Positions 973-55,700 of a stretch of DNA of 64,000 nucleotides are shown piece by piece. The DNA is from Eubacteriaceae bacterium ES3 (GTDB lineage Bacteria > Bacillota > Clostridia > Eubacteriales > Eubacteriaceae): positions 1,854,680 to 1,918,679 of the forward strand of contig CP130741.1 in assembly GCA_030586155.1 (NCBI GenBank), read 5' to 3'. Positions within the stretch are counted from its first letter, which is position 1; the number at the start of each line of letters is the position of its first letter. The notes beneath the pieces are model-generated. The model was not told the origin of the DNA and made no database searches. It was given only the letters and a program-made list of their open reading frames with translations. The position numbers were made by a program, and so were the translations under genes.

Positions 973-1006
973 AAGCCCCGTGATAATTATCACGGGGCTT
1001 TTTTAA
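973..1006. terminator. Bidirectional rho-independent terminator
   Basis: Positions 973-1000 form a perfect 28-nt palindrome (arms AAGCCCCGTGATAA) with T residues on the right and A residues on the left, so it can stop transcription from both convergent genes. The stop codon of the minus-strand gene (990-992) lies inside the stem. Confidence 0.92.
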
Positions 1007-2246
1007 ACCATTTTTCAATTTCTTCTCGAGAATAAATGTAAACAGATTCGGGCAGGTGCCTGACAAACTCATTGAAAGCCTTGTTAATCCCGAATTCATT
1101 AATCCTGATACCAGCTATTTTTTTTGCATGATGACATTCAAAAATGATTTCAAAGTCCATTGATTCTTCATTATACTTAAAAACAATCGAATTTTTACCA
1201 CTGATAAATTGATCGCGCAGTAAAAAAACAGAAGGTTCATTTTCACCGTCAGGCAATATCTGTTCATAAAGACTTCTTCTAGCCATCTTATTTTCAGGAT
1301 CTTTTTCTTTAAGAAAATCGATTGCCTTCTGGGCGATCATATATTCTCGCTTTTTATTTTCATCTTCATGAATAAAGCAGGCTCTGGCATTGATCGGACA
1401 CTGGGTTTCTACCCTGTTAATAAGCGATTGGGACTGGCGAATAATTGAAGTTGCCTTATTTTTATAGTAATCAATGACTTCCGGGCGGTCAACAATAACT
1501 GCCGACTTTAAATCGTCATCGATTAAGAGCAGATTCGAAGATGTAATAAAATAGTTTGGCATTAAAATACTCAAATCTGTTCCTTTTTTAGATGCCGTAT
1601 AATAATAATATGGTTCAAATTTGATATTTTTAAGACAACCTAACATAAAAGCTGTCTCTAACGCCTCAAGATTATTCTCCAACTTTTTATTATTGACTAT
1701 CGGAATTAAATTTTGGACGACTCCCCCGGTTAAGTCCATATAGTCCATCCGCAGCAGCAACTCGTTTAAAAGATCATAGTTTTCTCTCAGCGACAGGATC
1801 ACATGGGCCTCCTGTTCACGTTGCATTTCCTTAAACAAAAGATTTTCAATTACTGAAATGACCTGTGTATTGCCCTCAACAAACTGAAGTGGAAGTTTTT
1901 CTATTTCATAATTTAAGGGCAGTCGCGTGCTTTTTAAAAAGTCTTTTTTGCTGTCCTGAAAGCTGCTAAGTGTTTGCAAAAGGTCCATAAATTTGTAGTG
2001 TTCATTATAGCGATAAAGGCCCTGACTCTCTATTTCAAACAAGGTAAGAAGCTCATAAAGTTTTTCCTGGTCCGGTTTGAAATAGTCCACCAGAATTTTA
2101 AAATTTTCTCGGGATAAATTTCTGGAACCAGAAAAAAACTTTTGCAGCTGTGTTCGTTCAATTTCTAATATTTCTGCCAATCCGTAGATGGTCTGGCCAT
2201 TATCATCCAGTAGTTCTTTAAAACATTTCGATAAGGTATTTTTCAT
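990..2246 (-). CDS. HTH-domain protein, unknown family (paralogue of the adjacent gene)
   Basis: A 418-residue protein whose N-terminal 60 residues look like an XRE-type helix-turn-helix (IYGLAEILEIERTQLQKF followed by SGSRNLSRE). The long C-terminal part is soluble and unrecognised; it could sense a ligand or bind a partner. The neighbour at 2269-3798 has the same plan: HTH, a motif of the type (K/E)L(Y/L)ELLxLxE after it, similar central blocks, and a C-terminal block ending before the last 60 residues. The two are therefore tandem paralogues, 22 bp apart and co-directional. The last codons and the TGA stop lie within the shared terminator palindrome. A transcription factor is the best inference, but no effector domain is identified. 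Confidence 0.7.
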   Translation of the reverse strand: MKNTLSKCFKELLDDNGQTIYGLAEILEIERTQLQKFFSGSRNLSRENFKILVDYFKPDQEKLYELLTLFEIESQGLYRYNEHYKFMDLLQTLSSFQDSKKDFLKSTRLPLNYEIEKLPLQFVEGNTQVISVIENLLFKEMQREQEAHVILSLRENYDLLNELLLRMDYMDLTGGVVQNLIPIVNNKKLENNLEALETAFMLGCLKNIKFEPYYYYTASKKGTDLSILMPNYFITSSNLLLIDDDLKSAVIVDRPEVIDYYKNKATSIIRQSQSLINRVETQCPINARACFIHEDENKKREYMIAQKAIDFLKEKDPENKMARRSLYEQILPDGENEPSVFLLRDQFISGKNSIVFKYNEESMDFEIIFECHHAKKIAGIRINEFGINKAFNEFVRHLPESVYIYSREEIEKWFKKAP

Positions 2247-2268
2247 CTGGACCTGCTTTCAATTTAAA

Positions 2269-3798
2269 TCAGCTCGTAGCCGAATTGACATTCTCGACTT
2301 TAAATTCACCACCGAGAAAATATCTGTCATGAATCATTTGAAATTCCGGACGTTTTTCATATTTATCAATCAGGACATTCAGCTTTTCTAATGTAATTCT
2401 TTCACTGTTAACCCATTCACTAACCGATAAATAGCTGAAAAAATCTTTAAAGGCTGCTCTGATTGATGCCTTCCTTATGTTTATCGATTTAAACACTTGT
2501 TTCTGCTTTATGCGATAATGAAATGTTATCTGCAGAGAATTCACTTCATCTGAATATTCAGCAGCATTATTGATAAAAAACAACGTCTCATTGACAACAT
2601 TAAACTTTCTCTTCCCGCTTGCCAGGTCATCACGCACCAGCTTTAAAAAGGCCAGCCTTTCCGGAGGATCAACTGTCTCAGACACTGATTCAGGCAGATA
2701 AAGCTCCCCATTTTCCATAAATATTTCAAGATACTTAAAGGAAAAAACATTCTTCATTGCCTTCCCACTTTTCCTGAGATTTGAATAAAAGCTTTTTGCA
2801 AACGGTAATAGTGCCTGGTAAAAAGGAAAATCCTTACGTACTTTATCTTCTATAAATAGGTCCGTAAAATAGTGGGCGAAACAGGGAATGGGCTCAAGAA
2901 TTACACGAGGTTCATACTCCAGATCAAAAGCGCTGTATATCTGCAGTGGATTATTATTATCGATGATTAATTGTTTAGTTTGCGAAAACAAAGCATTAAA
3001 TCGAGAATTGTAATAATCCAGTTTGTCCTGAGTCCGATACCTGACCCCCAGTTTAAAGTCCGGTGATATGACCATCACCTCTGTCGTTGTCAGTATAAAA
3101 AAGACCACACCTGATTGATTGCTTTTAATATTCTGGTCCTGAATCATCATATAATTTGCATCATATGTCACATTTTCAAGCAGAGAAATACCAAGCAGAA
3201 ATTTGAGCGTACTCAATGCCTGATCTCCCTGACTATTTTCTTCTTCAGTAAAACAGACTATATCCTGTATTATTAATCGTTTTCTGTTTCCCATCATTTC
3301 ATGGAATAAATAATGATACAGGAAATTCTGATCGCTGGAGGATACCAGCTTAATCCTTGGCTCTTCTCTGAAATAAACTTCGCGATCAATGACCTGATGC
3401 ATGAGGGCAATGATATTCTCCAAACCGTAAACGCTTTTGTTCTCTTCTAAAATCTGTACATCGTTAATATCGATGGATTTGGTGTCGATATTTTTTTTAA
3501 TCGGGATCTCATATTCAGTCAGTTCAGAAATCAGTTCGATCAGTTCTTTAATCGTTTGCCTGTTCTGATAGATCTGCATTCCACACTTTTCCATTTCCAG
3601 CAGGTCCAACAGCTCGTCTTCATCGGGCTTAGACAGCTGCAAAACCTGACTGAATCGACAGAGAAATTCACGGGTTGGCAGACGCTTTCCAGATTTTATC
3701 TTTTGAATCGTCGTGCGATCCAAGTGTCCCATTTCAGCAATTGATTGGACACTCTCGCCGTATTCATTAATCAATTCTTCTATCCGTGTCTGCAGCAA
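2269..3798 (-). CDS. HTH-domain protein, larger paralogue of the downstream gene
   Basis: About 509 residues. The N-terminus carries an XRE-like helix-turn-helix (VQSIAEMGHLDRTTIQKI, then SGKRLPTREFL) followed by an acidic stretch (KPDEDELLDLLEMEK), matching the paralogue at 990-2246. The remaining 400 residues have no recognised domain or transmembrane segment. The TTG at 3798 is the probable start because AGGAGGTGAG lies directly upstream with ideal spacing; a longer reading from 3849 has no ribosome site. It heads a two-gene transcript. Targets and signal are unknown. Other readings include phage-type or competence-type regulators, but nothing specific supports them. Confidence 0.65.
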   Translation of the reverse strand: MLQTRIEELINEYGESVQSIAEMGHLDRTTIQKIKSGKRLPTREFLCRFSQVLQLSKPDEDELLDLLEMEKCGMQIYQNRQTIKELIELISELTEYEIPIKKNIDTKSIDINDVQILEENKSVYGLENIIALMHQVIDREVYFREEPRIKLVSSSDQNFLYHYLFHEMMGNRKRLIIQDIVCFTEEENSQGDQALSTLKFLLGISLLENVTYDANYMMIQDQNIKSNQSGVVFFILTTTEVMVISPDFKLGVRYRTQDKLDYYNSRFNALFSQTKQLIIDNNNPLQIYSAFDLEYEPRVILEPIPCFAHYFTDLFIEDKVRKDFPFYQALLPFAKSFYSNLRKSGKAMKNVFSFKYLEIFMENGELYLPESVSETVDPPERLAFLKLVRDDLASGKRKFNVVNETLFFINNAAEYSDEVNSLQITFHYRIKQKQVFKSINIRKASIRAAFKDFFSYLSVSEWVNSERITLEKLNVLIDKYEKRPEFQMIHDRYFLGGEFKVENVNSATS

Positions 3799-3983
3799 AT
3801 TTCTCACCTCCTCTGAAACTGAAAAACAAAAGTAATAAATGTTTAACAAATGTGCTTTTTTGTTGATACATATTCACTATTAGATATGAGATATTTTACC
3901 AAATATTTAAGTTAATTTCAATCTTAAAGCAACAAATTTAGATTACAAAATCGACGATTTGTAACTTTTACTGCCCAAAATCT

Positions 3984-5297: not shown

Positions 5298-5320
5298 TAA
5301 TCTTTCAGGAAAGATATACT

Positions 5321-5396
5321 TTGCAACTGGCTGCCATATAAATTACTTAGGCCCTATAGCTTTGCGCCCTCACCTTTCGATGAGTTTGCCAAATAT
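5321..5396 (-). ncRNA. Cyclic di-GMP-I (GEMM) riboswitch, copy A (promoter-distal)
   Basis: Read on the minus strand, the aptamer core is present in order: GGCAAACTCATC-GAAA-GGTGAGGGCGC, then GCAAAGC, CCTAAG, TATGG and CAGCCAGTTGC. The P2 stem is capped by the GAAA tetraloop, and CCTAAG with TATGG is the classical 11-nt tetraloop receptor. This is the best preserved of the three copies and the closest to the subtilase start. Confidence 0.92.
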
Positions 5397-5535
5397 TCAA
5401 TTTTTATAGTTATTTAAATTTTTGTAAGTGCCTTGTTACACCATCATAATATCCTATGCTTATGCTGTTTACTGTAACTTTGTCACCATATTTATTCTTT
5501 TTACTTTTTTTATATTTTACCAATATTTTCAAAAT

Positions 5536-5560
5536 AAAAAGAGCAACGTTGCCGTTGCTC
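5536..5560 (-). terminator. Terminator behind riboswitch B
   Basis: On the minus strand GAGCAACG (5560-5553) and CGTTGCTC (5548-5541) form the stem, followed by TTTTTATTTT. Confidence 0.88.
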
Positions 5561-5578
5561 TTAAGTTCTTTAAAAACC

Positions 5579-5660
5579 TTGCAACTGGCTGTCTTATAAT
5601 AAAATTATTTAGACCCTATAGCTTTGCGTCCTCACCTTTCGATGAGTTTGCCAAATATTT
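5579..5660 (-). ncRNA. Cyclic di-GMP-I (GEMM) riboswitch, copy B (middle)
   Basis: The minus strand carries GGCAAACTCATC-GAAA-GGTGAGGACGC, GCAAAGCTATAGGGTCTAA and GACAGCCAGTTGC. The core matches copy A, but the receptor is a variant (TCTAAAT with ATAAGA). A strong terminator follows 18 nt downstream, so this is a complete aptamer-plus-terminator unit. Confidence 0.92.
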
Positions 5661-5674
5661 AATTTTGTGAAAAT

Positions 5675-5700
5675 AAAAAGAGCAACGTCACCGTTGCTCT
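5675..5700 (-). terminator. Terminator behind riboswitch C
   Basis: On the minus strand AGAGCAACG pairs with CGTTGCTCT across a GTGA loop and is followed by TTTTTATTTT. Stem and tail are nearly identical to those behind copy B, which points to duplication of whole aptamer-terminator units. Confidence 0.88.
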
Positions 5701-5720
5701 GAGTTTACTTTTAAACCTTT

Positions 5721-5800
5721 TTGCAACTGGCTGTCTTATAATAAAATTATTTAGACCCTATAGTTTTGCGTCCTCACTTTTCAGTGAGTTTGCCCTTAAT
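5721..5800 (-). ncRNA. Cyclic di-GMP-I (GEMM) riboswitch, copy C (promoter-proximal)
   Basis: The minus strand carries GGCAAACTCACT-GAAA-AGTGAGGACGC and GACAGCCAGTTGC. The conserved GCAAAGC is GCAAAAC here, a G-to-A change at the base of P3 that may alter affinity. It is the first aptamer transcribed from the promoter at 5837-5865. Confidence 0.88.
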
Positions 5801-5836
5801 ATTCAGTTTTGCGTTAGCAAATATTTATTTGCCCTT

Positions 5837-6685: not shown

Positions 6686-8575
6686 TTACTGACCGCTAAA
6701 AACCTGGACCTGGTTTCGGCCATTATTTTTGGCCCGATAAAGGGCGGTATCAGCCTGCTCAACCAATTTTTCCGGTCCGACTTTAACAGTTGGAATTATC
6801 GAAGAAACGCCAATACTGACCGTGACACAATCTTTCACAAGGGACTCACTGTGGGGGATACCGCTTTCCTCAATTTTTTGCCGCAACATCTGTGAGGTTT
6901 TAAGTGCCTCGATTTCATTTGCTTCCGGCAAAAGAATCACAAATTCCTCACCGCCAAATCTGACTGCCATATCGGTTGCCCGGGACAAAGATGCTTTTAG
7001 GATACTGGCAATTTGGGCAAGACAGTCGTCGCCGGCCAGATGACCATATGTGTCATTGAAAAATTTAAAATAATCGATGTCAATAAAAATCAGGGAAATG
7101 GGATGACTGTAGCGCAAACAGCGTTTCCACTCCATATCGATCACCTCATCGTATTTACGGCGGTTCCATAGTCCCGTCAGGGGATCCCGAAGGGATAGTT
7201 TTTGCAGCTCTTCGTTGGCTTTTTGAAGCTCCAGTTTCTGTTGTTCAACCTTCTGATTTGACTCCGATAAGGCTTGTGTTCTCTGGGTTACGATTTCATC
7301 CAGGTGAGCATTCATCTGGGTTTTAAACTCCAGCGAATCCGAAAATGTTTTCGCCATATGAAATGAATAAGCAATCACAAAAATTAATTGACCTGTCGAA
7401 CTGTAGTCATCATTTCTAAAAATCATCTGCAACAGAGGTGGACATTGATTATTGATAAAAAAGCTTTGCGAAATAATATCGATGAAGATGGTAAGAATCA
7501 GGATTAGGCCACCCAGGCTGATCAGAAAAGTCCCCTTAACCCGGTGTCGCCAGATATTGACAAATCGGGTCAGCATGTAGCCGATCAGAAAAAGGCACCA
7601 TATCTGATAGCTTGTATTGAAGGCATGGAAGAAGCCAAGTGGTATAAACATTACAATTAATGCATAAATAAGACCTACATACAAAGAGAGATCAACCATT
7701 TTAGCATGAAAATAGTCAGGTAAAATCGCTCCAAAGAACAGGATAATCATGGGTGGACTCAAATAGAAAAGCATGGTTTGGATCTTCCTGAAGTAGGTAA
7801 AATCACCGTTTTGAAAAAGCGTGTAATAATATCCCTCGCCAGCCATTAAAGTACGGGCTGCAACCAGCATACAGAATAATCCAAAGTAAAGCGATGAATA
7901 ATCCTTTTTCCGGAAAAAAAACAGGGCCAGATGATAAAAGCCCATAATAACCAGGGCACCAAAAATTGCCAGCGAAGTATTTAATTTGCTTTCCCGCAAG
8001 GCCTGAATACCTGCTGCGCTCCCCATTTCAATTTCGCTCAACATACCACCGTTTGGCATATAGTAATTGGAAACCAGCAAAATAATTTCATTTTCACCTT
8101 CCCGCGCATTAAAAAAGGCAATTTGCGGCAGATACTGGGCAACCATATCCTCCTCGTCCCGACCAATTAAGCCAGCGGAGGCAATGAGTTTCCCGTTTAT
8201 ATACATCTCGTAAGCGGTTTGCACTTTCGGTATCTTTATTCCCAGGATGTCGGTTTTATCTGATGTAAAGGTCAGGCGATAAGTTGCATACCCCTGGCCC
8301 GGCAACTTTTCACCGTCAATGGCATATCTGTTCCAGGTGGAAGGTACATCAACAATAGCACTTAATTCACCCTGGTCGATCATAAATGGATACAAGAGCT
8401 GGTTCCAGTAGAATTCCCATTCACCGGAAAGACTGACGAGTTGCTGATTAAGATCAACTTCAGTTAAATCCAAACGGCCCTGACTTGCACTGGTTGGGGT
8501 GATTCTATTTACACAGCCGGTTAAAAGGGGAGTCAGCAAAAGCAGAACAAGTAAAGTTTTTTTGTTATTTTTCAT
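6686..8575 (-). CDS. Membrane diguanylate cyclase with DISM-type sensor (copy 2 of a tandem pair)
   Basis: A 629-residue enzyme that would make cyclic di-GMP from two GTP. The N-terminus has a lipoprotein-like signal (LLTPLLTGC). An extracytoplasmic beta-sandwich follows (GEWEFYWNQLL, about residues 30-190), as in 7TMR-DISM sensors that often bind carbohydrates, then about seven membrane helices (200-400), a coiled coil (about 420-460) and a GGDEF domain. The active site is GGEEF, and the RATD five residues before it is the inhibitory I-site, so product feedback is likely. It is the downstream member of a tandem duplication, with 41 bp between the genes. AAAGGGG precedes the ATG. It is probably transcribed from the activator-type promoter at 10567-10616. 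Confidence 0.92.
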   Translation of the reverse strand: MKNNKKTLLVLLLLTPLLTGCVNRITPTSASQGRLDLTEVDLNQQLVSLSGEWEFYWNQLLYPFMIDQGELSAIVDVPSTWNRYAIDGEKLPGQGYATYRLTFTSDKTDILGIKIPKVQTAYEMYINGKLIASAGLIGRDEEDMVAQYLPQIAFFNAREGENEIILLVSNYYMPNGGMLSEIEMGSAAGIQALRESKLNTSLAIFGALVIMGFYHLALFFFRKKDYSSLYFGLFCMLVAARTLMAGEGYYYTLFQNGDFTYFRKIQTMLFYLSPPMIILFFGAILPDYFHAKMVDLSLYVGLIYALIVMFIPLGFFHAFNTSYQIWCLFLIGYMLTRFVNIWRHRVKGTFLISLGGLILILTIFIDIISQSFFINNQCPPLLQMIFRNDDYSSTGQLIFVIAYSFHMAKTFSDSLEFKTQMNAHLDEIVTQRTQALSESNQKVEQQKLELQKANEELQKLSLRDPLTGLWNRRKYDEVIDMEWKRCLRYSHPISLIFIDIDYFKFFNDTYGHLAGDDCLAQIASILKASLSRATDMAVRFGGEEFVILLPEANEIEALKTSQMLRQKIEESGIPHSESLVKDCVTVSIGVSSIIPTVKVGPEKLVEQADTALYRAKNNGRNQVQVFSGQ

Positions 8576-8616: not shown

Positions 8617-10497
8617 TCAATAGACCTGCACCTGATTTCGGCCATTGTTTTTAGCCCGATAAAGGGCTTCATCCGCTTCCATCACCAGTATTTCCGGTGT
8701 TGTTTTTATGGATGGTACCATAGCCGATACCCCAACACTGACGGTTACGCAGTCTTTAACCTGGGAATCGCAATGGGGAATTCCCTGATTTTCGATTTTT
8801 TCAAGCAGCATATGCGCGGTCTTCATGGCTTCAGACTGGTCAGTTTCCGGCTGCAATATCACAAATTCTTCACCACCATAACGCACAGCCATATCAGTTG
8901 CGCGGGACAAGGAAGAATTGAGGATATCGGCAATAATGATCAGGCATTTATCGCCAGCCAGATGTCCATAGGTATCATTAAAATTCTTGAAGTAATCAAT
9001 ATCAATAAAAATCACTGCAATTGAATGTTTGTAGCGCAAGCAGCGCTTCCATTCAATAGCTAAGACTTCGTCATATTTCCGGCGATTCCACAAACCGGTT
9101 AGGGGATCGTGATAAGAGATTTTTTTCAGCTCGGCATTAGCTTTTTCAAGGGCGGTTTTCTGTTGCTCAATCTGTTGGTTGGAAACCGTTAGGGCATCCG
9201 TTTTTAAAGCCACTATATCATCCAGCTCCAGATTAGTTGCAGTTGTAAATGCCAGGCTATCGGCGTACTTTTTAGCCAGATGCAAGGAATAGACCATTAC
9301 AAAAATCAGTTGCCCGGTCGATAAATAGTTATTATTTTTAAAAAGCATCTGCAGATAAAGCGGCCACTGATCATTGACAATTCCAGTCTGAGGTATGATA
9401 TCCATTAAAACGGCGATTAATAGAGGAATGCCCCCCAAAACAATCACTAGACTTTCTTTTTCATGCCGTAGAATAATCCTGACAAACTGTACCACCATAT
9501 ATAAAATCAGAAAAAGGCACCAGGGCAGATAAATCATGCTGAAAACAGAAAACACAGAGGCCGGCATCAGTATTACGGCAAAGACATAAAAAAGACTTAC
9601 GAAAAGTGATAAATCGGCTATTTTTTTGTGGAAGAAATCCGGCAGAATTGCCTTGAAAAACAGCACGAGCATTGGCGGCATCAAGTAAAATAGAATCGAT
9701 TGAATCTTCCGCATTAAAGTAAAATCAGCATTCTGAAACAGGGTGTAATAATAGGAATCGCCTATCATCATCGTTCTCAGGGCGACCAGGATACAAAACA
9801 GGCCAAAGAATAAAGAAGCATGATCCTTTTTTCTAAAAAGAAACATCGCCAGATGATAAATTCCAATAATAGACAGGGCTCCAAATAGAAACAGCGAGTA
9901 ATTAAGGCTTCTTTCCCGCATCAGCTGGATGTTCGCCGCACTGCCCAATTCGATATCGCCCACCAGTCCGCCGCTGGCCATATAGTAATTTGAAACCAGC
10001 ATCACCAGTTCATTTTCACCTTCCCGGGCATTAAAATAGGCAATCTGTGAAAGATACTGGGCCGTCATCGCGTCTTTACTTGTTCCTACAACCCCTGCTG
10101 AAGCCACCAGCTTATTGTTAATATAAAGCTCATAAGCAGTTTTAATCTTTGGTAGTTTAATTCCATAAATACCATTCTGTGAAGAATTAAATGTTAAACG
10201 GTAAGTTCCATATCCCTGACCTGGAATCGTCTGACCATCGATCTCAAACTGAGTCCATGAAGATGGAAGCTTAATATAGCCATTTAGTTCTCCCTCATTA
10301 ATGCTTTCCGGAAGAAGCAACTGATTCCAGTAGAATTCCCATTCCCCAGAAAGTGTTATGATCTCATTTTCCAGATCCAGACCACTTAAGTCCACATGCC
10401 CGTCATCGGCTTTACTTTGTGTAACTTGCTTCACGCATCCGCTTAGAAGAGGCATCAACAGAACTAAGACGATAATTATCTTTTTTATCTTATTCAT
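8617..10497 (-). CDS. Membrane diguanylate cyclase with DISM-type sensor (copy 1 of a tandem pair)
   Basis: A 626-residue paralogue of the gene at 6686-8575, collinear over its whole length. It has a lipobox-like signal (LMPLLSGC), a DISM beta-sandwich with GEWEFYWNQLL, about seven membrane helices, a linker helix and a GGDEF domain with GGEEF and the I-site RATD. Both copies keep all residues expected for activity. The sensor halves differ more than the catalytic halves, so the two may respond to different ligands. AAAGGGGG precedes the ATG. Its promoter carries the same 20-bp direct-repeat element as the exopolysaccharide operon, which suggests shared control of c-di-GMP synthesis and matrix production. 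Confidence 0.92.
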   Translation of the reverse strand: MNKIKKIIIVLVLLMPLLSGCVKQVTQSKADDGHVDLSGLDLENEIITLSGEWEFYWNQLLLPESINEGELNGYIKLPSSWTQFEIDGQTIPGQGYGTYRLTFNSSQNGIYGIKLPKIKTAYELYINNKLVASAGVVGTSKDAMTAQYLSQIAYFNAREGENELVMLVSNYYMASGGLVGDIELGSAANIQLMRERSLNYSLFLFGALSIIGIYHLAMFLFRKKDHASLFFGLFCILVALRTMMIGDSYYYTLFQNADFTLMRKIQSILFYLMPPMLVLFFKAILPDFFHKKIADLSLFVSLFYVFAVILMPASVFSVFSMIYLPWCLFLILYMVVQFVRIILRHEKESLVIVLGGIPLLIAVLMDIIPQTGIVNDQWPLYLQMLFKNNNYLSTGQLIFVMVYSLHLAKKYADSLAFTTATNLELDDIVALKTDALTVSNQQIEQQKTALEKANAELKKISYHDPLTGLWNRRKYDEVLAIEWKRCLRYKHSIAVIFIDIDYFKNFNDTYGHLAGDKCLIIIADILNSSLSRATDMAVRYGGEEFVILQPETDQSEAMKTAHMLLEKIENQGIPHCDSQVKDCVTVSVGVSAMVPSIKTTPEILVMEADEALYRAKNNGRNQVQVY

Positions 10498-10566: not shown

Positions 10567-10616
10567 ATTATATCAAATAACTTTTTTGACTACAACGTGT
10601 GACAAAAAGTGTGACA
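10567..10616 (-). promoter_or_regulatory. Promoter of the tandem cyclases with a 20-bp direct-repeat activator site
   Basis: On the minus strand TGTCACACTTTTTGTCACAC (10616-10597) is followed after 1 nt by the -35 box TTGTAG (10595-10590), a 17-nt spacer and the -10 box TATAAT (10572-10567). The two GTCACAC half-sites are direct repeats 12 nt apart, about one helical turn. The weak -35 with an adjoining repeat is typical of a promoter that needs an activator. Confidence 0.75.
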
Positions 10617-12307: not shown

Positions 12308-12358
12308 TGCCACACTAACTGTCACATCTTATTGATAAATATAAATACAGTTTATATT
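12308..12358 (+). promoter_or_regulatory. Fourth direct-repeat promoter, pointing right into a non-coding region
   Basis: On the plus strand TGCCACACTAACTGTCACAT (12308-12327) is followed after 1 nt by TTATTG (12329-12334), a 17-nt spacer and TTATAT (12352-12357). The spacing is identical to the promoters at 10567-10616, 55373-55422 and 55651-55700. There is no plus-strand gene downstream; the transcript from about 12364 would contain the foldable element at 12405-12499. Confidence 0.55.
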
Positions 12359-48074: not shown

Positions 48075-49325
48075 TCAATCTCTCCTGAAAATATCCCTTG
48101 TATAAACCATTTCCTCTACATCCATAATCTCAGAATCATACCTATTTGCAACAATCGCATCCGATCCACGCTTAAATTTCTCAATATCATTTACTACTAA
48201 ACTTCCAAAGAAAGTTTCACCGTCTTGCAGTGATGGCTCATAAATAATTACGGTTGCTCCTTTTGCCCTGATTCTCTTCATAACCCCCTGTACAGAACTC
48301 TGCCTAAAATTATCACTGCTACTCTTCATTGTAAGCCGATATACACCAATGGTAATAGGTCTTTCTTTCTCGGCATTCCAAATACTATTACCTGAATAAG
48401 AATAGTATCCGGCTTTCTTGAGAACTTGATCCGCAATAAAATCTTTTCTGGTTCGGTTACTTTCTACAATCGCCCCAATCAGGTTTTCTGGTATATCTTC
48501 ATAATTTGCCAGCAACTGTTTGGTGTCTTTCGGCAAACAATAACCACCATAACCAAAAGAAGGATTATTATAATGGGTGCCTATCCTATCGTCTAAACAC
48601 ACTCCATTAATAATATTGCTGGTATCCAGCCCTTTCATTTCGGCATAGGTATCCAGCTCATTAAAATAGCTCACACGCAAGGCCAGGTAAGTATTGGCAA
48701 ATAGTTTTACGGCTTCTGCTTCGGTAAAATCCATAAATAAGGTTTCAATATCTTCTTTTATGGCCCCTTCCTGTAATAGACCTGCAAAAGTATGAGCTTC
48801 TTTTAGAAGTCTTTCATCATTCATATCAGTCCCAACAATAATTCGGCTAGGGTATAAATTGTCATAAAGGGCTTTACTCTCTCTAAGAAACTCTGGGCTA
48901 AACAGAATATTTTGTGAACCCGTCTTTTCCCTAATAGATCTTGTATAACCTACCGGAATGGTACTTTTTATAACCATAATTGCATCTGGGTTATATTGCA
49001 TTACCAAATCTATAACAGCTTCTACTGCAGAAGTATCGAAAAAATTCATGTCTGGATCATAATTTGTCGGAGCGGCAATCACTACAAAGTCCGCATTTGT
49101 ATATGCTTCTTCTGCATCAAGAGTTGCCGTCAACTTAAGTTCCTTTTCTGCTAAATACTTTTCAACGTACTCATCCTGAATTGGAGATTTTCTGTTATTT
49201 ATCAGATTAATTTTTTCTTCAATAATATCAACGGCCACCACTTCGTGATATTGAGAAAGCAGTATCGCTATTGATAAACCAACATAGCCTGTACCGGCAA
49301 CAGCAATTTTAAAATCCTTCTTCAT
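48075..49325 (-). CDS. ugd: UDP-glucose 6-dehydrogenase
   Basis: A 416-residue enzyme that oxidises UDP-glucose to UDP-glucuronate with two NAD. The Rossmann motif is [16 protein letters not shown], the catalytic Cys is in [12 protein letters not shown], and [12 protein letters not shown] and [15 protein letters not shown] are further family blocks. It implies an acidic polymer. The ATG at 49325 has GGAG upstream at long spacing; a reading to 49373 would place the start in a terminator. A terminator lies just ahead of it, so expression depends on read-through or a weak local promoter. Confidence 0.95.
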
Positions 49326-49372
49326 AATTCTAAAGATCTCCTCAACGTAACTCTTATAACCGAAACCAAACA

Positions 49373-49408
49373 CAAAAAATCCGCTACATATTCCTACATA
49401 GCGGATTT
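49373..49408 (-). terminator. Terminator inside the exopolysaccharide cluster
   Basis: On the minus strand AAATCCGCTA and TAGCGGATTT pair across a 12-nt loop and are followed by TTTTGTG. It divides the regulatory and assembly genes from the glycan-building genes. The rest of the gap 49409-49588 contains only a small TTATCGTT-type hairpin at 49440-49463. Confidence 0.8.
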
Positions 49409-49588
49409 CCCCCTCTTCAAAAGCCTTAAAAAGCCTTTCTTATCATCGTTTTTCCAACGATAATCAACCAATCCTATAAATAATCCTTCACACTATGTAA
49501 CTGCGTCTCCCTCACTACTTAATAATGCTGTAACAAGAGAACTATTCAATTGTCTAAATCATTTGTTACATACAAAACTCATTCCCTA

Positions 49589-51004
49589 TTAAACTGCACC
49601 AGACTTATTAAAGACTACCATCACTGTTTTAAAAAGGATCTTAACGTCAGAAGTAAGATTCCAGTCGCTGATATAGCGGGCATCCAATTTTACAATATCT
49701 TCAAAATCGGTAATGTCACTGCGGCCGGAAATCTGCCAGAGGCCGGTAATGCCCGGCTTCATAGCCAGTCGTGATTTATGATGGTAGTCATATTCGTTAA
49801 ATTCATCCTGGGTTGGCGGTCTGGTTCCCACTAGGGACATATCCCCTTTTAACACATTCCACATCTGAGGGAACTCGTCAATCGAGGTGGCCCGAATAAA
49901 ATGACCAATCCCCTTAATAATGCGCGGGTCGTTATCCATTTTAAACATCAGGCCATTCATCTTGTTCTGGGCCATCAGTTCGGCTTTTCGCTTTTCCGCA
50001 TCCATATACATGGACCGGAATTTATAAATTTTAAACTGCCGTCCGTTCATCCCTATCCTGGTCTGGGCGAAAAAGATTGGGCCCGGGCTTTTAATATAAA
50101 TAATCGGTGCAACAAAGACAAACAGGATGCCGGTAATAAACAAGCCCACCAGGCTGCCGCAGATATCAATAACCCGTTTAATGAAAAGCTTGCGGGCGCT
50201 GACCACATTCATCCCACCGGTGACTACTTTATAATTGCCGACGCCTTCAACCACTTCTTTAATCGGGTATTTATTGTGTTTTTCACCCAGGACAAAGTGA
50301 ACCACCGCCCCCATAGAGACACAGGTATCTTCTATGTCCGAAATAAAGTCGTTAAAACCATTGGCACAGATAAAGACTTCGTCGATAACGTTTTCCTTAA
50401 TATAGGCAAAGGCCTCTTCCTTGGTTGCCAGGTTTTCGAAATGGCAGTCCTCCACCGGTTCATCATCCAGCAGAAAGACCTTTTCGAATTCGTAATGGAC
50501 GCATTCATTATTTTTAATGAAATTGCTGACATCCTCAAGCTGGTCCAGTTTGTCACTGTAAGTAAAGACCACCACCTTATTGATCTGACATTTGCTTGCC
50601 GAATGTCTTTTACAGTAGGCCTTGGCAAAATTTCTGAAGGCAAAAGTCATCATGACGGTTAAAACATACATTAAACCAATATACAAACGGGAATAGTCGC
50701 TGGAGGTCTTAATCAGAAAGGTGATAAAGATGGTCAGCACATAAACCGTCGATACCTGAAAAACAACCGATGCGGCCTCGTCGTAATAACCGCGGCAATA
50801 AATGTTTTTGTAGGACTGGTTAAACAGAATAAAAATAAAGAAACTTAAAGACATAATCAGGGCCAGCTGCAGATAGGAATTGTAATTTCTTGCAGTAATG
50901 ATTCCCGCAATAAAGGGCAGCAGAAACGCAAACTGCATACAAATAAAATCGATAATTGTAAACTGATAATGCTTTAACCAGTCATCTTCGTAGATCTTAT
51001 ACAT
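49589..51004 (-). CDS. Polyprenyl glycosylphosphotransferase that primes exopolysaccharide synthesis
   Basis: A 471-residue PHPT-type transferase that would put a sugar phosphate on undecaprenyl phosphate. Four N-terminal helices lie within residues 10-130, followed by a nucleotide-binding-like middle domain, a fifth helix (about 280-305), and the catalytic sugar-transferase domain with FKIYKFRSMYMDAE, TSIDEFPQMWNVLKGDMSLVGTRPP and PGITGLWQISGRSD. GAGGAAC precedes the ATG at 51004. It is the last gene of the promoter-proximal block. Confidence 0.93.
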   Translation of the reverse strand: MYKIYEDDWLKHYQFTIIDFICMQFAFLLPFIAGIITARNYNSYLQLALIMSLSFFIFILFNQSYKNIYCRGYYDEAASVVFQVSTVYVLTIFITFLIKTSSDYSRLYIGLMYVLTVMMTFAFRNFAKAYCKRHSASKCQINKVVVFTYSDKLDQLEDVSNFIKNNECVHYEFEKVFLLDDEPVEDCHFENLATKEEAFAYIKENVIDEVFICANGFNDFISDIEDTCVSMGAVVHFVLGEKHNKYPIKEVVEGVGNYKVVTGGMNVVSARKLFIKRVIDICGSLVGLFITGILFVFVAPIIYIKSPGPIFFAQTRIGMNGRQFKIYKFRSMYMDAEKRKAELMAQNKMNGLMFKMDNDPRIIKGIGHFIRATSIDEFPQMWNVLKGDMSLVGTRPPTQDEFNEYDYHHKSRLAMKPGITGLWQISGRSDITDFEDIVKLDARYISDWNLTSDVKILFKTVMVVFNKSGAV

Positions 51005-51145
51005 TTGGTTCCTCACTTCCAAAACTTATTAATTTACAGACAATCCAACTCACTTTAAATAGGTCATACCATCTACGTCATACAAATATTTTTACTGCAG
51101 GCTTTGCTGCCCACAATTCCCACTTGCCGGCCGATTTAATTATGT

Positions 51146-52165
51146 TTATTGTTCTTCTGCCACCTCATAAAAGAGATCCACCGTTAGCTGGTTAAGACTT
51201 GCCTTGTCCGGGTAAAACTCGATATAGTCGTCACTCCCCTGTTTGGTTTCCCCGCTCAGGCTATAGACTTGGGCCTCCGGATAGGACTGAATATAATTCT
51301 GGAACTCGCCAATCTTTACATAGTCACAATTGGTGACCAGGTAGTCATCAATGGCGCCAAAGGCGTTGGCTAAAAAGCTGTTGTTGCCCGTTGAGCTGGC
51401 TTTTAAATTATGATAAAAGCCATTGATATAGAGTTCCTGCCTGCCGATACGGGCAAGGTTTGAATTATCGGAAACATACCAGCGCTGACGCACAAACTTC
51501 AGTGCCTGGTCTCCCATCAAAGTCACTGTCGTATCTTCGGTGAAGGTCGGGTCAATCACTGTCATGTCATCTGTCAGGGTTACCGTTACTCCGCCGACCA
51601 TATCATTTAGAATCGGGATGGCATCCATTTTCATAATCGCATAATTATCGATGGTGATCCCGCCCAGCAGGCTTTCCACGGCGTTAACTGTATTTTCGGC
51701 ACTGTCTTTTAATCCGGTGCCGTAGGTATGGGAAAGGGCAATCTGTTCGTAGAGGGTTCCGGCACTTCTGCCGCCCAGCCCCAGAACCGGGACATCGGTC
51801 ATGGTATCTCGATTGACTACCAGGATTTTGCAGGTGTTTTCCTCTGTGTTGTAGGCAATCAGAGAGATAAAGTCAATCTGTTCATCATTCTTGTAGGATC
51901 CGCTTTCCACCGCATCACCAAACTTATCGACCCCGCCCAAAAGAACTGTATACACATCCGGGTCGGGGAGATATTTCACCCCGTCGATGGTTATGGCTTT
52001 CAGCTCATCATAATCTGTAAGTGTCTGCCCGGCATAGGCGATCTCCTCTTCATGCCCCAGGTAGGAAATCCCCAGATAAGCAGTAACCAGAATAACAGCG
52101 CTGAGTACTAAAATTATGATGATGCGAAAAATAATGTTACTGCTAATACTATGTCTTATTCTCAT
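51146..52165 (-). CDS. LytR-CpsA-Psr family ligase
   Basis: A 339-residue protein with one membrane helix (about 13-35) and an extracytoplasmic LCP domain. The visible marks are TVLLGGVD near the start of the domain, LVVNRDTMTDVPV (Arg and Asp near the pyrophosphate), and FVRQRWYVSDNSNLARIGRQELYI. Such enzymes transfer finished polysaccharide from lipid carrier to peptidoglycan. In this cluster it would anchor the exopolymer to the wall. The ribosome site is weak, and the gene follows the secreted protein gene by 13 bp. Confidence 0.92.
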   Translation of the reverse strand: MRIRHSISSNIIFRIIIILVLSAVILVTAYLGISYLGHEEEIAYAGQTLTDYDELKAITIDGVKYLPDPDVYTVLLGGVDKFGDAVESGSYKNDEQIDFISLIAYNTEENTCKILVVNRDTMTDVPVLGLGGRSAGTLYEQIALSHTYGTGLKDSAENTVNAVESLLGGITIDNYAIMKMDAIPILNDMVGGVTVTLTDDMTVIDPTFTEDTTVTLMGDQALKFVRQRWYVSDNSNLARIGRQELYINGFYHNLKASSTGNNSFLANAFGAIDDYLVTNCDYVKIGEFQNYIQSYPEAQVYSLSGETKQGSDDYIEFYPDKASLNQLTVDLFYEVAEEQ

Positions 52166-52178
52166 GGTATCAGATCAA

Positions 52179-52949
52179 TTAAGAGGTCTTTTTCATTTTT
52201 GTAATGACTAAGGCTGCGACAACAATTATGACACCAGCACCTGCCAAAATTGGAATCATCATAGAATTGCTGGTTGTTGCTTCGGCGGTTTCAGCTTCTA
52301 CTGCCGATGCGGTTTCCACACTGGCTGATAAAAAGGCCACCGGGCATAAGTGAGGGAAGGTAACGGTTACGCTGCCATCTGCATTGACGACTACATCATC
52401 CGAGGATACAAAATCCCATCCGCCGGTTTCGGCATTGTAGACAATGACAACAATCACATCGCCTTCGTTATAGCCAGCATCGAAGGTCATTTGCACATCA
52501 TAACCCTGGTCAAAGGTTGCGGCTCTTAAGGCATCACTGATACTAACATCGATAATATCTCTGACGGCAAAGTCGCTGTCGGAATAATCCGGATAGGAAG
52601 CAGCGATAAAATCGGTCAGATTGGTATAAAATTCAGAACCAGTATTTAGGAGCTGGTCTCTGGCGGCTATATAATTTTCCAGAGCCTCACCGGTTAGTGT
52701 GGCTTCAAAATCCGAGTCAGTGGTAATGGTAACAGCACCATCAGCGGCTGGAATATAGTGGGTTACCCCATCTGCATCCACATAAGAAGCAATGGCTAAT
52801 GTGCCGTCCGGTGCGGTAAAAGTGGTCAGTGTCGGACCATCCGTTCCAGCAACACTTGGTGCTATGGTGGCAAAGACATGGCTGCTTAGTAACAGGGTAA
52901 TAACTGTTGTTGCCAGTAATATAAGTTTCCAGTTTTTCTTACTTTTCAT
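52179..52949 (-). CDS. Secreted, C-terminally membrane-anchored protein in the exopolysaccharide operon
   Basis: A 256-residue protein with a signal peptide (cleavage near HVFAT), an extracytoplasmic part and a C-terminal helix (IPILAGAGVIIVVAALVI) ended by KMKKTS. Residues 30-70 are beta-rich and contain ADGVTHYIPAADGAVTI. A second domain ends with DGSVTVTFPHLCPVAFL, a pattern seen in several Gram-positive surface proteins. There is no LPxTG motif. Its gene overlaps cpsB by 11 bp, so it is a core part of the operon. The role is unknown; export or surface retention of the polymer is a guess. Confidence 0.75.
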   Translation of the reverse strand: MKSKKNWKLILLATTVITLLLSSHVFATIAPSVAGTDGPTLTTFTAPDGTLAIASYVDADGVTHYIPAADGAVTITTDSDFEATLTGEALENYIAARDQLLNTGSEFYTNLTDFIAASYPDYSDSDFAVRDIIDVSISDALRAATFDQGYDVQMTFDAGYNEGDVIVVIVYNAETGGWDFVSSDDVVVNADGSVTVTFPHLCPVAFLSASVETASAVEAETAEATTSNSMMIPILAGAGVIIVVAALVITKMKKTS

Positions 52950-53637
52950 AATTTCTTCCTTCCCTTAAATAGTTTGTTTGTTTATCTAAAAAAGTCTCTA
53001 CACTTTGGGTCCCAAGTTTATCTATCATGGTCTGATAGGCTTCTTGTATATTTGGCGGCCGGGTGGTCAGATTGTGACAATCCGAGCCGATAAAATCTAT
53101 ATAATCTTTCTTCATAAGCTTCAGTGCCTTTCTTTGGGTCTTCCAGTCTATAAAATAGTCTACACTGACCTGAATTAAAAAGTTATTACAGACATAATCA
53201 ATATTGTCTGTTCCCTTTTGGCACTTGATATACCGTTCGATATGGGCTAAAACCAGTTTAAGATTTGTTTTGTTTTCAACATGATGCAAGTCCTCAACCA
53301 TTCGCTCTGTCCATACCGTTACTGGCATTTCCACCAAGAGTAAGTTTGTTTCTTCTATTCTTAGTTTTTCTATCTCTTCTGAATTTCCCATGCCATCGTA
53401 ATAAGCGACTTCGGCACCAATTAAAAGATTGTCGTAGGTTTTACCCAATGCTTCAACAGAAGCATTTCTTCTTTCCAAAAATCGATCCGGCTGATCCTGC
53501 CAGGGATAGAAATGCGGTGTTGCAACAAGAATTTCAACCCCCTGTTCAAATGACTGCCTGATCATTTCATTCGATTCTTCACTATTGTGGCTGCCATCAT
53601 CCATTCCTGGTAAGACGTGTGAATGAAAATCGATCAT
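52939..53637 (-). CDS. CpsB/YwqE-type tyrosine-protein phosphatase
   Basis: A 232-residue PHP-fold metal-dependent phosphatase. Metal ligands are visible in MIDFHSHVLPGMDDGSH, ATPHFYPW, LIGAEVAYYDG, VLAHIERY and FIGSDCHN. It would dephosphorylate the Tyr-rich tail of the neighbouring kinase CpsD and so tune polymer length and output. The genes lie in the classical order C, D, B as in streptococcal and Bacillus capsule loci, here 4 bp after cpsD. Confidence 0.93.
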   Translation of the reverse strand: MIDFHSHVLPGMDDGSHNSEESNEMIRQSFEQGVEILVATPHFYPWQDQPDRFLERRNASVEALGKTYDNLLIGAEVAYYDGMGNSEEIEKLRIEETNLLLVEMPVTVWTERMVEDLHHVENKTNLKLVLAHIERYIKCQKGTDNIDYVCNNFLIQVSVDYFIDWKTQRKALKLMKKDYIDFIGSDCHNLTTRPPNIQEAYQTMIDKLGTQSVETFLDKQTNYLREGRNYEK

Positions 53638-53641
53638 AATA

Positions 53642-54439
53642 TCACCCGTTGGTCAGCGAAGAACTTGTGTGGGCGTATTTTGAATTGCTGTAATCGGAAT
53701 AGCTGTAATTATCGCTATATTTTTTATAGTAACCCGATCTGACCTGGGTATAACTATTGAAGATAAAACCAAGAATTTTGGTATTGGAAAATTTAAGCTG
53801 TCTGATGGTTTCAGACAGGGACTTCTGATCGCTCCGGTCCTGTCTGACCACCACCACCATACCATCGATAAATTTGGAGGCAATCACTGCATCCGCCACC
53901 ACCGTAACCGGCGGCAAATCGATGATGATATAGTCATAGGCCATGGAACAGGCGTCCAGAAATTCCTTCATTTTCTTAGAATCCAGCAGTTCTGCCGGGT
54001 TTGGTGGAATGCTCCCCGCCGGGGCCAGATCCAGTTTTACATCTTCCGATGCATCAATTGAATTGAGAATATCTCTAACTGGTATGTCATGGCCAACCAG
54101 CAGGTCGGTTAGGCCTATTTTGTAGGACTTGCCCAGTTTTGAGGTAACCGTCGGCTTTCTGAAATCCGCTTCGATAATTAACACCTTTTTATTGTTGGCC
54201 GCGATGGAATAGGCCAGGTTAATGGAAGTCAGGCTTTTTCCCTCGCCGGTAATGGCGCTGGTAACGCCAATGACCTTGCACATTTTATCGTTGGCAAAAG
54301 AGAATTCCAGGTTGGTTCGTAACCGTTTATAAGCTTCTGTGGCCTGAAAGTTCAGGCTGTTACCAATTTTCTGCTGCTCGCTTTTTTTATTGCGCTCCGA
54401 GCGTTTGCTTGATGACTTTTTCTTTTTAAAACCAAACAT
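53642..54439 (-). CDS. CpsD-type tyrosine autokinase
   Basis: A 265-residue BY-kinase. Walker A is TSAITGEGKSLTSIN, Walker A' is LIIEADFRKP, and Walker B is YIIIDLPPV. The C-terminal tail is a cluster of tyrosines (YYKKYSDNYSYSDY), the autophosphorylation site. The N-terminus is Lys- and Ser-rich. It works with the membrane protein CpsC encoded just upstream. The ATG at 54439 has GGAGGAG upstream, so the one at 54451 is less likely. Confidence 0.95.
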   Translation of the reverse strand: MFGFKKKKSSSKRSERNKKSEQQKIGNSLNFQATEAYKRLRTNLEFSFANDKMCKVIGVTSAITGEGKSLTSINLAYSIAANNKKVLIIEADFRKPTVTSKLGKSYKIGLTDLLVGHDIPVRDILNSIDASEDVKLDLAPAGSIPPNPAELLDSKKMKEFLDACSMAYDYIIIDLPPVTVVADAVIASKFIDGMVVVVRQDRSDQKSLSETIRQLKFSNTKILGFIFNSYTQVRSGYYKKYSDNYSYSDYSNSKYAHTSSSLTNG

Positions 54440-54460
54440 ACTCTCCTCCATTCTCTTTCT

Positions 54461-55210
54461 TTACTGTTTGTAATTGCTGTAATAGTTATTATTGCTGTCG
54501 TCCCGATCCATATCCGGGATAATGGCCAAAAGCGGGATATCGGTGTAATTGGTGACCAGATAATCTTCCTCCCTGATGGTGGTATCGCTAAGTTCAATAA
54601 TGATAATCAGGCCGGCGCTCAAAACGAAACCAACCAGTGCGCCCATTAAAGTGTATTTAAATAAGTTGGGGCTGCTTTTAGCGGCTGGAACCACCGCGTA
54701 ATCGACGATTCTGGCCGAGCTGCCTTCCACAATGCTGGAAATTCGCTCCGGCAGATCTTCTGCTATGGTATTGGCAATCAGTTCCGCCCGGTAGGGGTCG
54801 GTGTCGGTGACCAGGATTTCGAAAACTTCGGTGGAATCCACCGATGCTGCGGTAATCATTTCCACCAGTTCATCATAGGTCAGATCCAGCTGGGCATCGG
54901 CGATCACTTCGTTTAACATCTGTCGGGACTTTAAAATAACCATATAGGTATCGACTAAGCTTTTGGAAGCGGTAATATCGGTGCTGGAGATACTCAGTGC
55001 CGAGGTATCAAATGACAGGCCATTATTGTTGACATACATCTGGGCGCTGGATTCATATAAGGGGTCGACATAGAGATAGGTATAGGCCAATGCGCCGCCG
55101 CCAAAGATAAAAGAAACGAGGACCAGCAGCCAGGCTTTGTGCCAGAGGGCCTTTATCAGTTTTAGTAAGTCAATTTCCAGTTCATCATTTTGTTCAGTGT
55201 TATTCGTCAT
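54461..55210 (-). CDS. CpsC-type chain-length regulator and kinase activator
   Basis: A 249-residue Wzz-domain protein with two membrane helices (about 28-48 and 185-205) that bracket an external loop. The helix-proximal Pro-rich block PAAKSSPNLFKYTLMGALVG is typical of the family. The short cytoplasmic end activates the separate kinase CpsD. GAGGAG precedes the ATG. It is the first gene of the exopolysaccharide operon, behind two promoters with the direct-repeat element. Confidence 0.93.
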   Translation of the reverse strand: MTNNTEQNDELEIDLLKLIKALWHKAWLLVLVSFIFGGGALAYTYLYVDPLYESSAQMYVNNNGLSFDTSALSISSTDITASKSLVDTYMVILKSRQMLNEVIADAQLDLTYDELVEMITAASVDSTEVFEILVTDTDPYRAELIANTIAEDLPERISSIVEGSSARIVDYAVVPAAKSSPNLFKYTLMGALVGFVLSAGLIIIIELSDTTIREEDYLVTNYTDIPLLAIIPDMDRDDSNNNYYSNYKQ

Positions 55211-55372: not shown

Positions 55373-55422
55373 ATTCTATCATGGCCGTTTACTGTATACA
55401 ACGTGTGACAAAAAGTGTGACA
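55373..55422 (-). promoter_or_regulatory. Proximal exopolysaccharide promoter (P2) with direct-repeat activator site
   Basis: On the minus strand TGTCACACTTTTTGTCACAC (55422-55403) is followed after 1 nt by TTGTAT (55401-55396), 17 nt and TAGAAT (55378-55373). The arrangement equals that of the cyclase promoter at 10567-10616. The leader to the cpsC-type gene is about 155 nt. Confidence 0.78.
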
Positions 55423-55534: not shown

Positions 55535-55574
55535 TAAAAAAGCAATGTTCGCCCCTCTAGGAGCAACCATTGCT
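55535..55574 (-). terminator. Terminator between the two exopolysaccharide promoters
   Basis: On the minus strand AGCAATG-G-TTGCTCC and GGGGCGA-A-CATTGCT form a stem of about 14 pairs with a TAGA loop, followed by six T residues. It would stop RNA from the distal promoter after about 100 nt unless antitermination occurs. Confidence 0.85.
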
Positions 55575-55650
55575 AACTTGTTTTCAATATTTTCCTGTGG
55601 ATTGTATTTTCGTTAAATTTTATAAATTACTTATTTATATAGTTGCATTT

Positions 55651-55700
55651 ATTGTAGCACTATTCTTTTGCGCTGACAATATGTGACAAAAAGTGTGGCA
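55651..55700 (-). promoter_or_regulatory. Distal exopolysaccharide promoter (P1) with direct-repeat activator site
   Basis: On the minus strand TGCCACACTTTTTGTCACAT (55700-55681), 1 nt, TTGTCA (55679-55674), 17 nt and TACAAT (55656-55651). It directs a short leader RNA into the terminator at 55535-55574. Confidence 0.75.

Follow-up and report, generated by a model that had tools for sequence, protein, structure and literature searches.

A direct-repeat element at promoters of clostridial surface and signalling genes and its candidate Cro/C1-type regulators

Sequence comparison indicates that in many clostridia a short direct-repeat element is found at promoters of genes for the cell surface, slime and signalling, and that an undescribed family of DNA-binding proteins is present almost wherever the element is. 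We propose, with a probability of roughly three in four, that the element is the operator of this family, whose members combine a Cro/C1-type helix-turn-helix (HTH) domain with a TrmB-like one, and that these factors activate a surface programme via sigma-A promoters. The starting point was a stretch of 64,000 nt from Eubacteriaceae bacterium ES3 (CP130741.1, positions 1,854,680 to 1,918,679), referred to below as the window; the genome (G000) is one contig of 3.39 Mb. The preliminary description of the window had reported the element at four promoters, and had overlooked the candidate regulators (990–3849), the c-di-GMP riboswitches (5319–5804) and the spread of the system through Clostridia.

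All four 20-mers of that description are present with no mismatches, and in each case 1 nt, a –35-like hexamer (TTGTAG, TTGTAT, TTGTCA and TTATTG), 17 nt and a –10-like hexamer (TATAAT, TAGAAT, TACAAT and TTATAT among the four sites) follow, exactly as described. The first site (10567..10616, minus strand) reads TGTCACACTTTTTGTCACAC G TTGTAG N17 TATAAT and lies 5' of tandem diguanylate cyclase genes, its footprint being common to a MAG from the Eubacteriaceae (G012). Two more sites are on the minus strand, one (55373..55422) ahead of a wzz-led exopolysaccharide operon, with a footprint in G006 and G016, and the other (55651..55700) upstream of it. Between these two promoters lies a terminator-like hairpin (55549..55566, minus strand, fold z –3.04), where a leader RNA of about 100 nt started at the upstream promoter may end; the stretch from promoter to terminator between the two exopolysaccharide elements (55540–55680, minus strand), roughly 100 nt long, is a possible leader or small RNA. 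The least certain site (12308..12357, plus strand, TTATTG N17 TTATAT) is the weakest of the four, with a –35 box devoid of TTG and two mismatches to the 50-nt element-plus-promoter pattern, compared to none in the other three. No sense gene was found downstream and no terminator-like site just behind, and the non-coding RNA previously suggested here was rejected, as the fold is ordinary (z –0.84) and no Rfam family was found at this place. Scanning of the window with the 50-nt pattern yields four matches at three or fewer mismatches, versus 0.04 expected in shuffles, while the 20-mer at the same threshold yields eight versus 2.95 expected and is mostly noise.

The same holds for the complete genome. 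The exact 20-mer occurs six times in 3.39 Mb (reversed control, 0), and both exact copies outside the window, at 961484 and 1537887, carry the same promoter. At two or fewer mismatches 16 sites are found, versus 12 in the control, that is, mostly noise; the promoter is also present at two of the added sites, 2944034 and 2944510.

The rigid geometry beside a weak –35 box, claimed from four sites, is supported by a search of family genomes with a pattern that did not include the –10 box. The search for TGNCAC-N6-TGTCAC-N3-TTG produced 18 matches in five of 40 family genomes (control, 1), and TANNNT is located exactly 20 nt past TTG in 16 of the 18, no other offset being observed more than twice. 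As for the two exceptions, one has the box at 19 nt, and the other (locus L020 of G004) looks like chance. The extended –10 motif (TGn) is present in 12 of the 18 sites. The pattern TGNCACA-N5-TGNCACA-N2-TTG-N20-TANNNT, which leaves the third base of each half open, identified 69 sites in 22 of the 40 family genomes at up to one mismatch (control, 0). The element thus described occupies predicted positions –56 to –38 and consists of two 7-bp half-sites, TGNCACA, with a period of 12 bp. The half-sites are indeed direct repeats, as had been stated, since the variable third base is in the same register in both; the period is somewhat longer than the "one helical turn" claimed for them. Similarly, the original consensus, TG(T/C)CACAC and GTCACA(C/T), is valid for the four window copies, while in the wider set the third base varies.

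In Acetobacterium the second half-site is TGCCACA in 45 of 62 sites, and the third bases of the two halves are identical in only eight of 62, compared to six of six sites in Eubacterium. A palindromic reading (TGT-C-ACA) is not favoured, as variation in Acetobacterium falls on the third position in both halves, and thus on the same register. Patterns with free third bases left exactly these bases open, and a cleaner view is provided by the one-mismatch scan of Clostridia: G004, G016 and G023 have eight one-mismatch sites in all, and every one deviates at the third base of its second half (TGCCACA).

Almost all family sites (68 of 69) are clear of ORFs of at least 100 aa, so the refuting condition set in the preliminary description, copies scattered inside genes, did not apply. 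An unblocked co-directional ORF starts within 700 nt of the predicted transcription start in 62 of the 69 sites (median 94 nt); among the remaining seven, some are at the end of the fetched stretch or contig and some are blocked by an opposite ORF. The ORF picker, used here and for the distant loci below, is crude and keeps long antisense frames, so some of the blocked or geneless sites (e.g., L080 and L086) may have a gene.

In the window, the first gene behind the cyclase element encodes a 7TMR-DISM and GGDEF diguanylate cyclase (8617..10497, minus strand), followed by a second one of the same architecture (6686..8575, minus strand). The exopolysaccharide operon starts with the Wzz chain-length determinant (54461..55210, minus strand); four of its further genes (48075..54451, minus strand) were scanned and found to encode an AAA_31 ATPase, LytR_cpsA_psr, a sugar transferase and a UDP-sugar dehydrogenase. 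The proposed link between cyclase and exopolysaccharide promoters through a shared element gains from conservation in other species. In G012 the cyclase promoter has the element and the –10 box in common with its window counterpart, in a syntenic neighbourhood and between diverged flanks, and the wzz-proximal promoter is kept in G006 and G016, again with diverged flanks; no counterpart of the second, upstream exopolysaccharide element (55681) was seen in these two genomes. A gene for a DUF4301 protein (10672–12033, minus strand) adjoins the cyclase element in the window, and a resembling gene precedes the element in G012.

Clustering of the first genes behind the 69 family sites, with domains confirmed on examples only, yielded several recurrent classes: ChW/Ig-type surface proteins (13 sites in ten genomes), diguanylate cyclases, some as fragments (nine in nine), Ser/Thr kinases of kinase-FHA operons (seven in seven), the HTH regulator itself (seven in seven, including four near-identical sites in Eubacterium), ECF sigma factors (five in five), Wzz (four in three), the aldolase II family (three in three) and polysaccharide epimerases (two in two). 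Twelve first genes are singletons, including an O-antigen-ligase-like gene in G003. The element precedes the ECF sigma factor gene in L211, L223, L225 and two more Acetobacterium loci (one Pfam-checked); a possible anti-sigma gene (by inspection) comes next, which suggests a second control tier.

The genome of the window has eight promoter-type sites, seven from the search with free third bases plus 12308, and Pfam assigns the targets of only three of them to the recurrent classes (one to cyclases, two to exopolysaccharide). Behind a further one is a gene that on inspection looks flagellin-like; it is in two overlapping frames of 206 and 193 aa (L037:8569-9703) and may be broken. No target of the recurrent classes was found at 12308 or at the sites of L038 and L039. 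In L038 a look-alike (by inspection; 9147-9770) of the DDE_Tnp_1_4-group transposase encoded in the window at 13949–15304 lies beside the 1537887 element, and insertion may have moved this element or left it behind. L039:9031-9530 contains two elements 476 bp apart with no clear target gene; directly behind the first, a hairpin and a short T-run can be made out by eye.

Outside the family, the 50-nt pattern was matched by 39 stretches in about 85,000 species genomes, a scan run without a control, for which arithmetic with equal base frequencies gives about two chance matches. Four of these stretches are from Acetobacterium, five from G012, and the other 30 from further Clostridia, except two from Anaerovibrio, a negativicute. 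Among 391 Clostridia genomes scanned with one mismatch allowed, 11 match (control, 0). The first half-site is TGTCACA in all 30 distant sites, like the second, which is fixed by the pattern, so that sites with another second half would be missed. A downstream ORF is found inside the stretch in 24 of the 30 distant loci, three being counted as blocked. Pfam analysis of 20 of the 21 unblocked first genes (all except L057) identified FHA or FHA-FtsK/SpoIIIE proteins of the type-VII kind (four), BspA-type leucine-rich repeats (LRR, three), zinc ribbons (two), and ChW, sortase, FIVAR, PP2C phosphatase, M23 peptidase and Sel1 (one each), while five gave no Pfam family.

The likely regulators of the element, judging by co-occurrence and gene order, are long proteins with Cro/C1-type HTH and TrmB/PLD-like domains. 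Two paralogous genes for such proteins are present in the window on the minus strand, candidate A (2269..3849, 526 aa as called, start codon uncertain) and candidate B (990..2246, 418 aa). Homologues of the latter were found in 22 of 40 family genomes (E ≤ 0.001), and presence of HTH hits agrees with that of the element in 38 of the 40 (21 with both, 17 with neither); the Fisher test value of 3.5e-9 is an indication only, as related genomes are treated as independent, and copy numbers (two for G433, where the profile search described below shows one full-length member) and genome size entered by eye. The two discordant genomes at this threshold are G028, with the HTH family only, and G030, with the element only. 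A more sensitive profile, applied to G030 and to G028, one of 16 element-free genomes outside the genus, found full-length members in both, so G030 has the family, and G028 has full-length members yet no element at one or fewer mismatches. In two of the 19 genus members, G007 and G017, both the element and the family are missing, with short HTH matches only. Paralogues are frequent, with two to seven hits, some partial, per genome in the 17 positive Acetobacterium genomes and one to three in Eubacterium; most members are about 420–540 aa long, and a few of those listed are partial.

The same association is seen at larger distances. The profile detected full-length or near full-length members, mostly one or two, in 23 of 24 distant element-bearing genomes; the exception is G428, where elements are present and the profile found no family member. 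In two families that also contain element-bearing genomes, none of the seven element-free genomes, which are all such genomes in the 391-genome Clostridia sample, has more than a short HTH match.

Moreover, iterated profile search of locus ORFs found a gene of the family in 17 of the 39 loci, fetched by the DNA pattern alone. Outside Acetobacterium such a gene is present in 16 of 30 loci: in 12 it is divergent and lies beside the element with gaps of 63–177 bp (in L051 the called ORF overlaps the element by 35 bp), and in the other four it is upstream on the same strand, 92, 172, 475 and 1526 bp away. In G012, in a neighbourhood syntenic with the window, three HTH genes lie side by side and the element immediately precedes one of them; the called start codon of this gene, which may be annotated too early, is 9 bp from the –10 box. 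The regulator pair of the window itself has no element in front. A collection of plasmids contained no match for the exopolysaccharide DNA or a distant regulator homologue, and a collection of phages none for candidate A.

The AlphaFold2 model of candidate A, built with 15 relatives, has mean pLDDT of 81.8 and pTM of 0.81. Its first domain matches SinR, DdrO and C proteins (Foldseek E about 0.05, TM by target 0.7–0.86), and the sequence scores 24.0 bits with HTH_3 (cut-off 23), a threshold of HTH_3-type Pfam models that candidate B and most homologues miss; on the model, the domain is of the Cro/C1 type (XRE). Residues 134–298, modelled alone (pLDDT 86.8), match TrmBL2 (5bpi, E 1.7e-6, TMq 0.57), NucT (1.3e-4) and TrmB (2f5t, 2.9e-4, TMq 0.57), the TrmBL2 and TrmB hits having 8–10% identity. 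By its modelled fold this part is a PLD-fold effector domain. The catalytic HKD motif is missing in 15 of 16 members, and its sole occurrence, in L079, is at the start of the PLD-like domain and looks accidental. No Pfam model (14 members) or NCBIfam model (10 members) reaches its cut-off in the second domain, and the only sign of the TrmB winged helix is a trace of PF01978 in one protein (E-value 0.071). A correlation of a recognition-helix residue (K/H after a conserved Q) with the third base of the half-site seemed to hold within Acetobacterium and was rejected, being broken by L059.

Between the cyclases and the regulator pair of the window are three tandem c-di-GMP-I riboswitch aptamers (5319..5804, minus strand; 80.2, 75.2 and 69.2 bits), with a subtilase gene (4184–5245) downstream. 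One c-di-GMP-I aptamer is found at the same place in G012, and none in 17 other loci scanned. By position, a loop is possible in which the three riboswitches next to the regulators could respond to c-di-GMP made by the target cyclases.

In the mechanism that we propose, proteins of the family would bind, presumably as dimers, to two head-to-tail TGNCACA half-sites directly upstream of a weak –35 box, and the bound regulator would help sigma-A RNA polymerase to start at the promoter, often with an extended –10. A signal, possibly a ligand of the PLD-like domain, would switch the regulator on, and expression of exopolysaccharide, ChW- and BspA-type adhesins, Ser/Thr kinase-FHA operons and diguanylate cyclases would rise. 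Elsewhere in clostridia the predicted regulon extends to type-VII-like ATPases and, in some species, to the regulator's own gene. A more ambitious version is tentative, and we would sooner expect it to fail than to hold: a surface switch common to clostridia at large, operated by one-component regulators of an undescribed class (Cro/C1 HTH plus TrmB-like sensor) that read their operator head to tail, with the gene split in Acetobacterium into paralogues A and B, whose products form a heterodimer, one protein per half-site, and with the regulon of the window species wired to c-di-GMP via target cyclases and the riboswitch array. The contrast relevant to the heterodimer is that the halves are mostly unlike in Acetobacterium and alike in Eubacterium and distant sites; gene numbers do not differ as cleanly.

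If the HTH family binds the element, we strongly favour activation: the box ends just before a –35 of which only TTG is retained, an extended –10 is common, and this is the place at which Cro/C1-type activators, for example lambda CI at PRM, exert their effect. The proposal also has points against it: Cro/C1-type proteins more often bind inverted repeats, the regulator pair of the window has no element in front, few sites of its genome have targets of the recurrent classes, paralogues are frequent, and G028 and G428 break the match of family and element. Proteins of the HTH family might instead act as repressors or two-way switches with negative autoregulation of the HTH genes. This is rather unlikely, but agrees with the divergent position of the HTH gene beside the element in 12 of the 30 distant loci, as is often the case for repressors, and with the SinR-like HTH domain, SinR being a repressor of matrix genes; the TTG-only –35 and the extended –10 in 12 of 18 sites are what is expected of an activator at a weak promoter, although the location of the box upstream of –35 is fixed by construction of the pattern. 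It is still less probable that the repeats are the site of some other factor, e.g., a response regulator of the OmpR/PhoB type or a SARP/BTAD protein, the HTH genes being mere conserved targets. The element does precede HTH genes in seven genomes, and binding to direct repeats next to –35 is classical for regulators of the OmpR type, but mere target status would predict neither the matching presence and absence of family and element nor divergent adjacency to other targets. SARP/BTAD as the common factor was rejected: BTAD (PF03704) has hits in eight of 19 genus genomes, is missing in the element-bearing G000 and G012, and is present in the element-free G017.

Two further readings have very little left to stand on. 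The box resembles sigma-54 (–24/–12) promoters of some species (TGGCAC-N5-TTGC), and G and C at the two third positions do give GG-N10-GC in 24 of 62 Acetobacterium sites. However, this core is missing in the other 38, in all six Eubacterium sites, in the G030 site and in the 30 distant sites, where both halves are TGTCACA, and a sigma-A –10 box, which sigma-54 promoters do not need, follows at the fixed N20; a sigma-54 promoter was therefore rejected as hardly credible. Chance similarity or a dispersed repeat, to which the noise of the first-pass 20-mer search with mismatches might point, has a negligible probability and is refuted by the reversed-pattern controls, which gave 0 for the exact 20-mer in the genome, the 391 Clostridia and the 69-site search, and one in the 18-match search; besides, the flanks of orthologous sites have diverged.

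Several known systems resemble the proposed one in part. SinR of Bacillus subtilis, the Cro/C1-type protein in overall charge of biofilm matrix genes, is short and acts as a repressor; it has its own 7-bp box and the SinI antagonist. The likeness concerns control of exopolysaccharide and surface genes, the shortness of the half-sites and the HTH fold (3zkc chain B, TM by target 0.86, 26% identity over 64 columns, Foldseek E only 0.059). In contrast to SinR, the proteins described here are about 420–540 aa long, with a mixed alpha/beta TrmB/PLD-like domain in place of a helical C-terminus of the SinI-binding type, and the half-site is TGNCACA in a box adjoining a weak –35. The archaeal TrmB and TrmBL2, with a PLD-fold sugar-binding domain, are similar in the fold of residues 134–298, where HKD is mostly missing in our family, and differ in having a winged helix instead of the N-terminal Cro/C1-type domain; the family has no Pfam hit to the TrmB sugar domain. 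Lambda CI at PRM and the C proteins of restriction-modification systems, the latter found among the fold hits, share the Cro/C1 HTH beside a weak –35; they contact sigma and their operators are inverted repeats, unlike the direct repeat observed here. Response regulators of the OmpR type (PhoB, mycobacterial PhoP, MtrA) bind tandem GTCA-containing direct repeats at activated promoters, the Pho box having an 11-bp period and overlapping –35, while the element has a 12-bp period and ends upstream of it.

In acetogens, the Pcauto promoter motif and the TetR-family activator CAETHG_0459, with targets in C1 fixation, also combine a promoter motif with an activator, and differ in factor family and targets (PMC6873888); TGTCAC does not appear in the main text of that paper. 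Nor is the motif described in the accessible parts of PMC8457756, PMC11217815, PMC5651825 (on a primary transcriptome of E. limosum) and PMC6873888. The suggestion that no regulator for such a site had been described still stands: neither the motif nor the regulator was found in the open-access literature, searched with narrow term combinations and excluding supplements, which is weak evidence.

The analysis puts forward an operator, a rule for its promoters and a candidate regulator for genes of adhesins, exopolysaccharide, Ser/Thr kinase-FHA operons, diguanylate cyclases and type-VII-like ATPases, and shared control of these clostridial gene groups is not described in the literature searched. 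The precision of the rule allows regulon members to be predicted from sequence, as it already does for 22 family genomes and 24 other named ones, and the system has a bearing on attachment and biofilm in the acetogens of gas fermentation.
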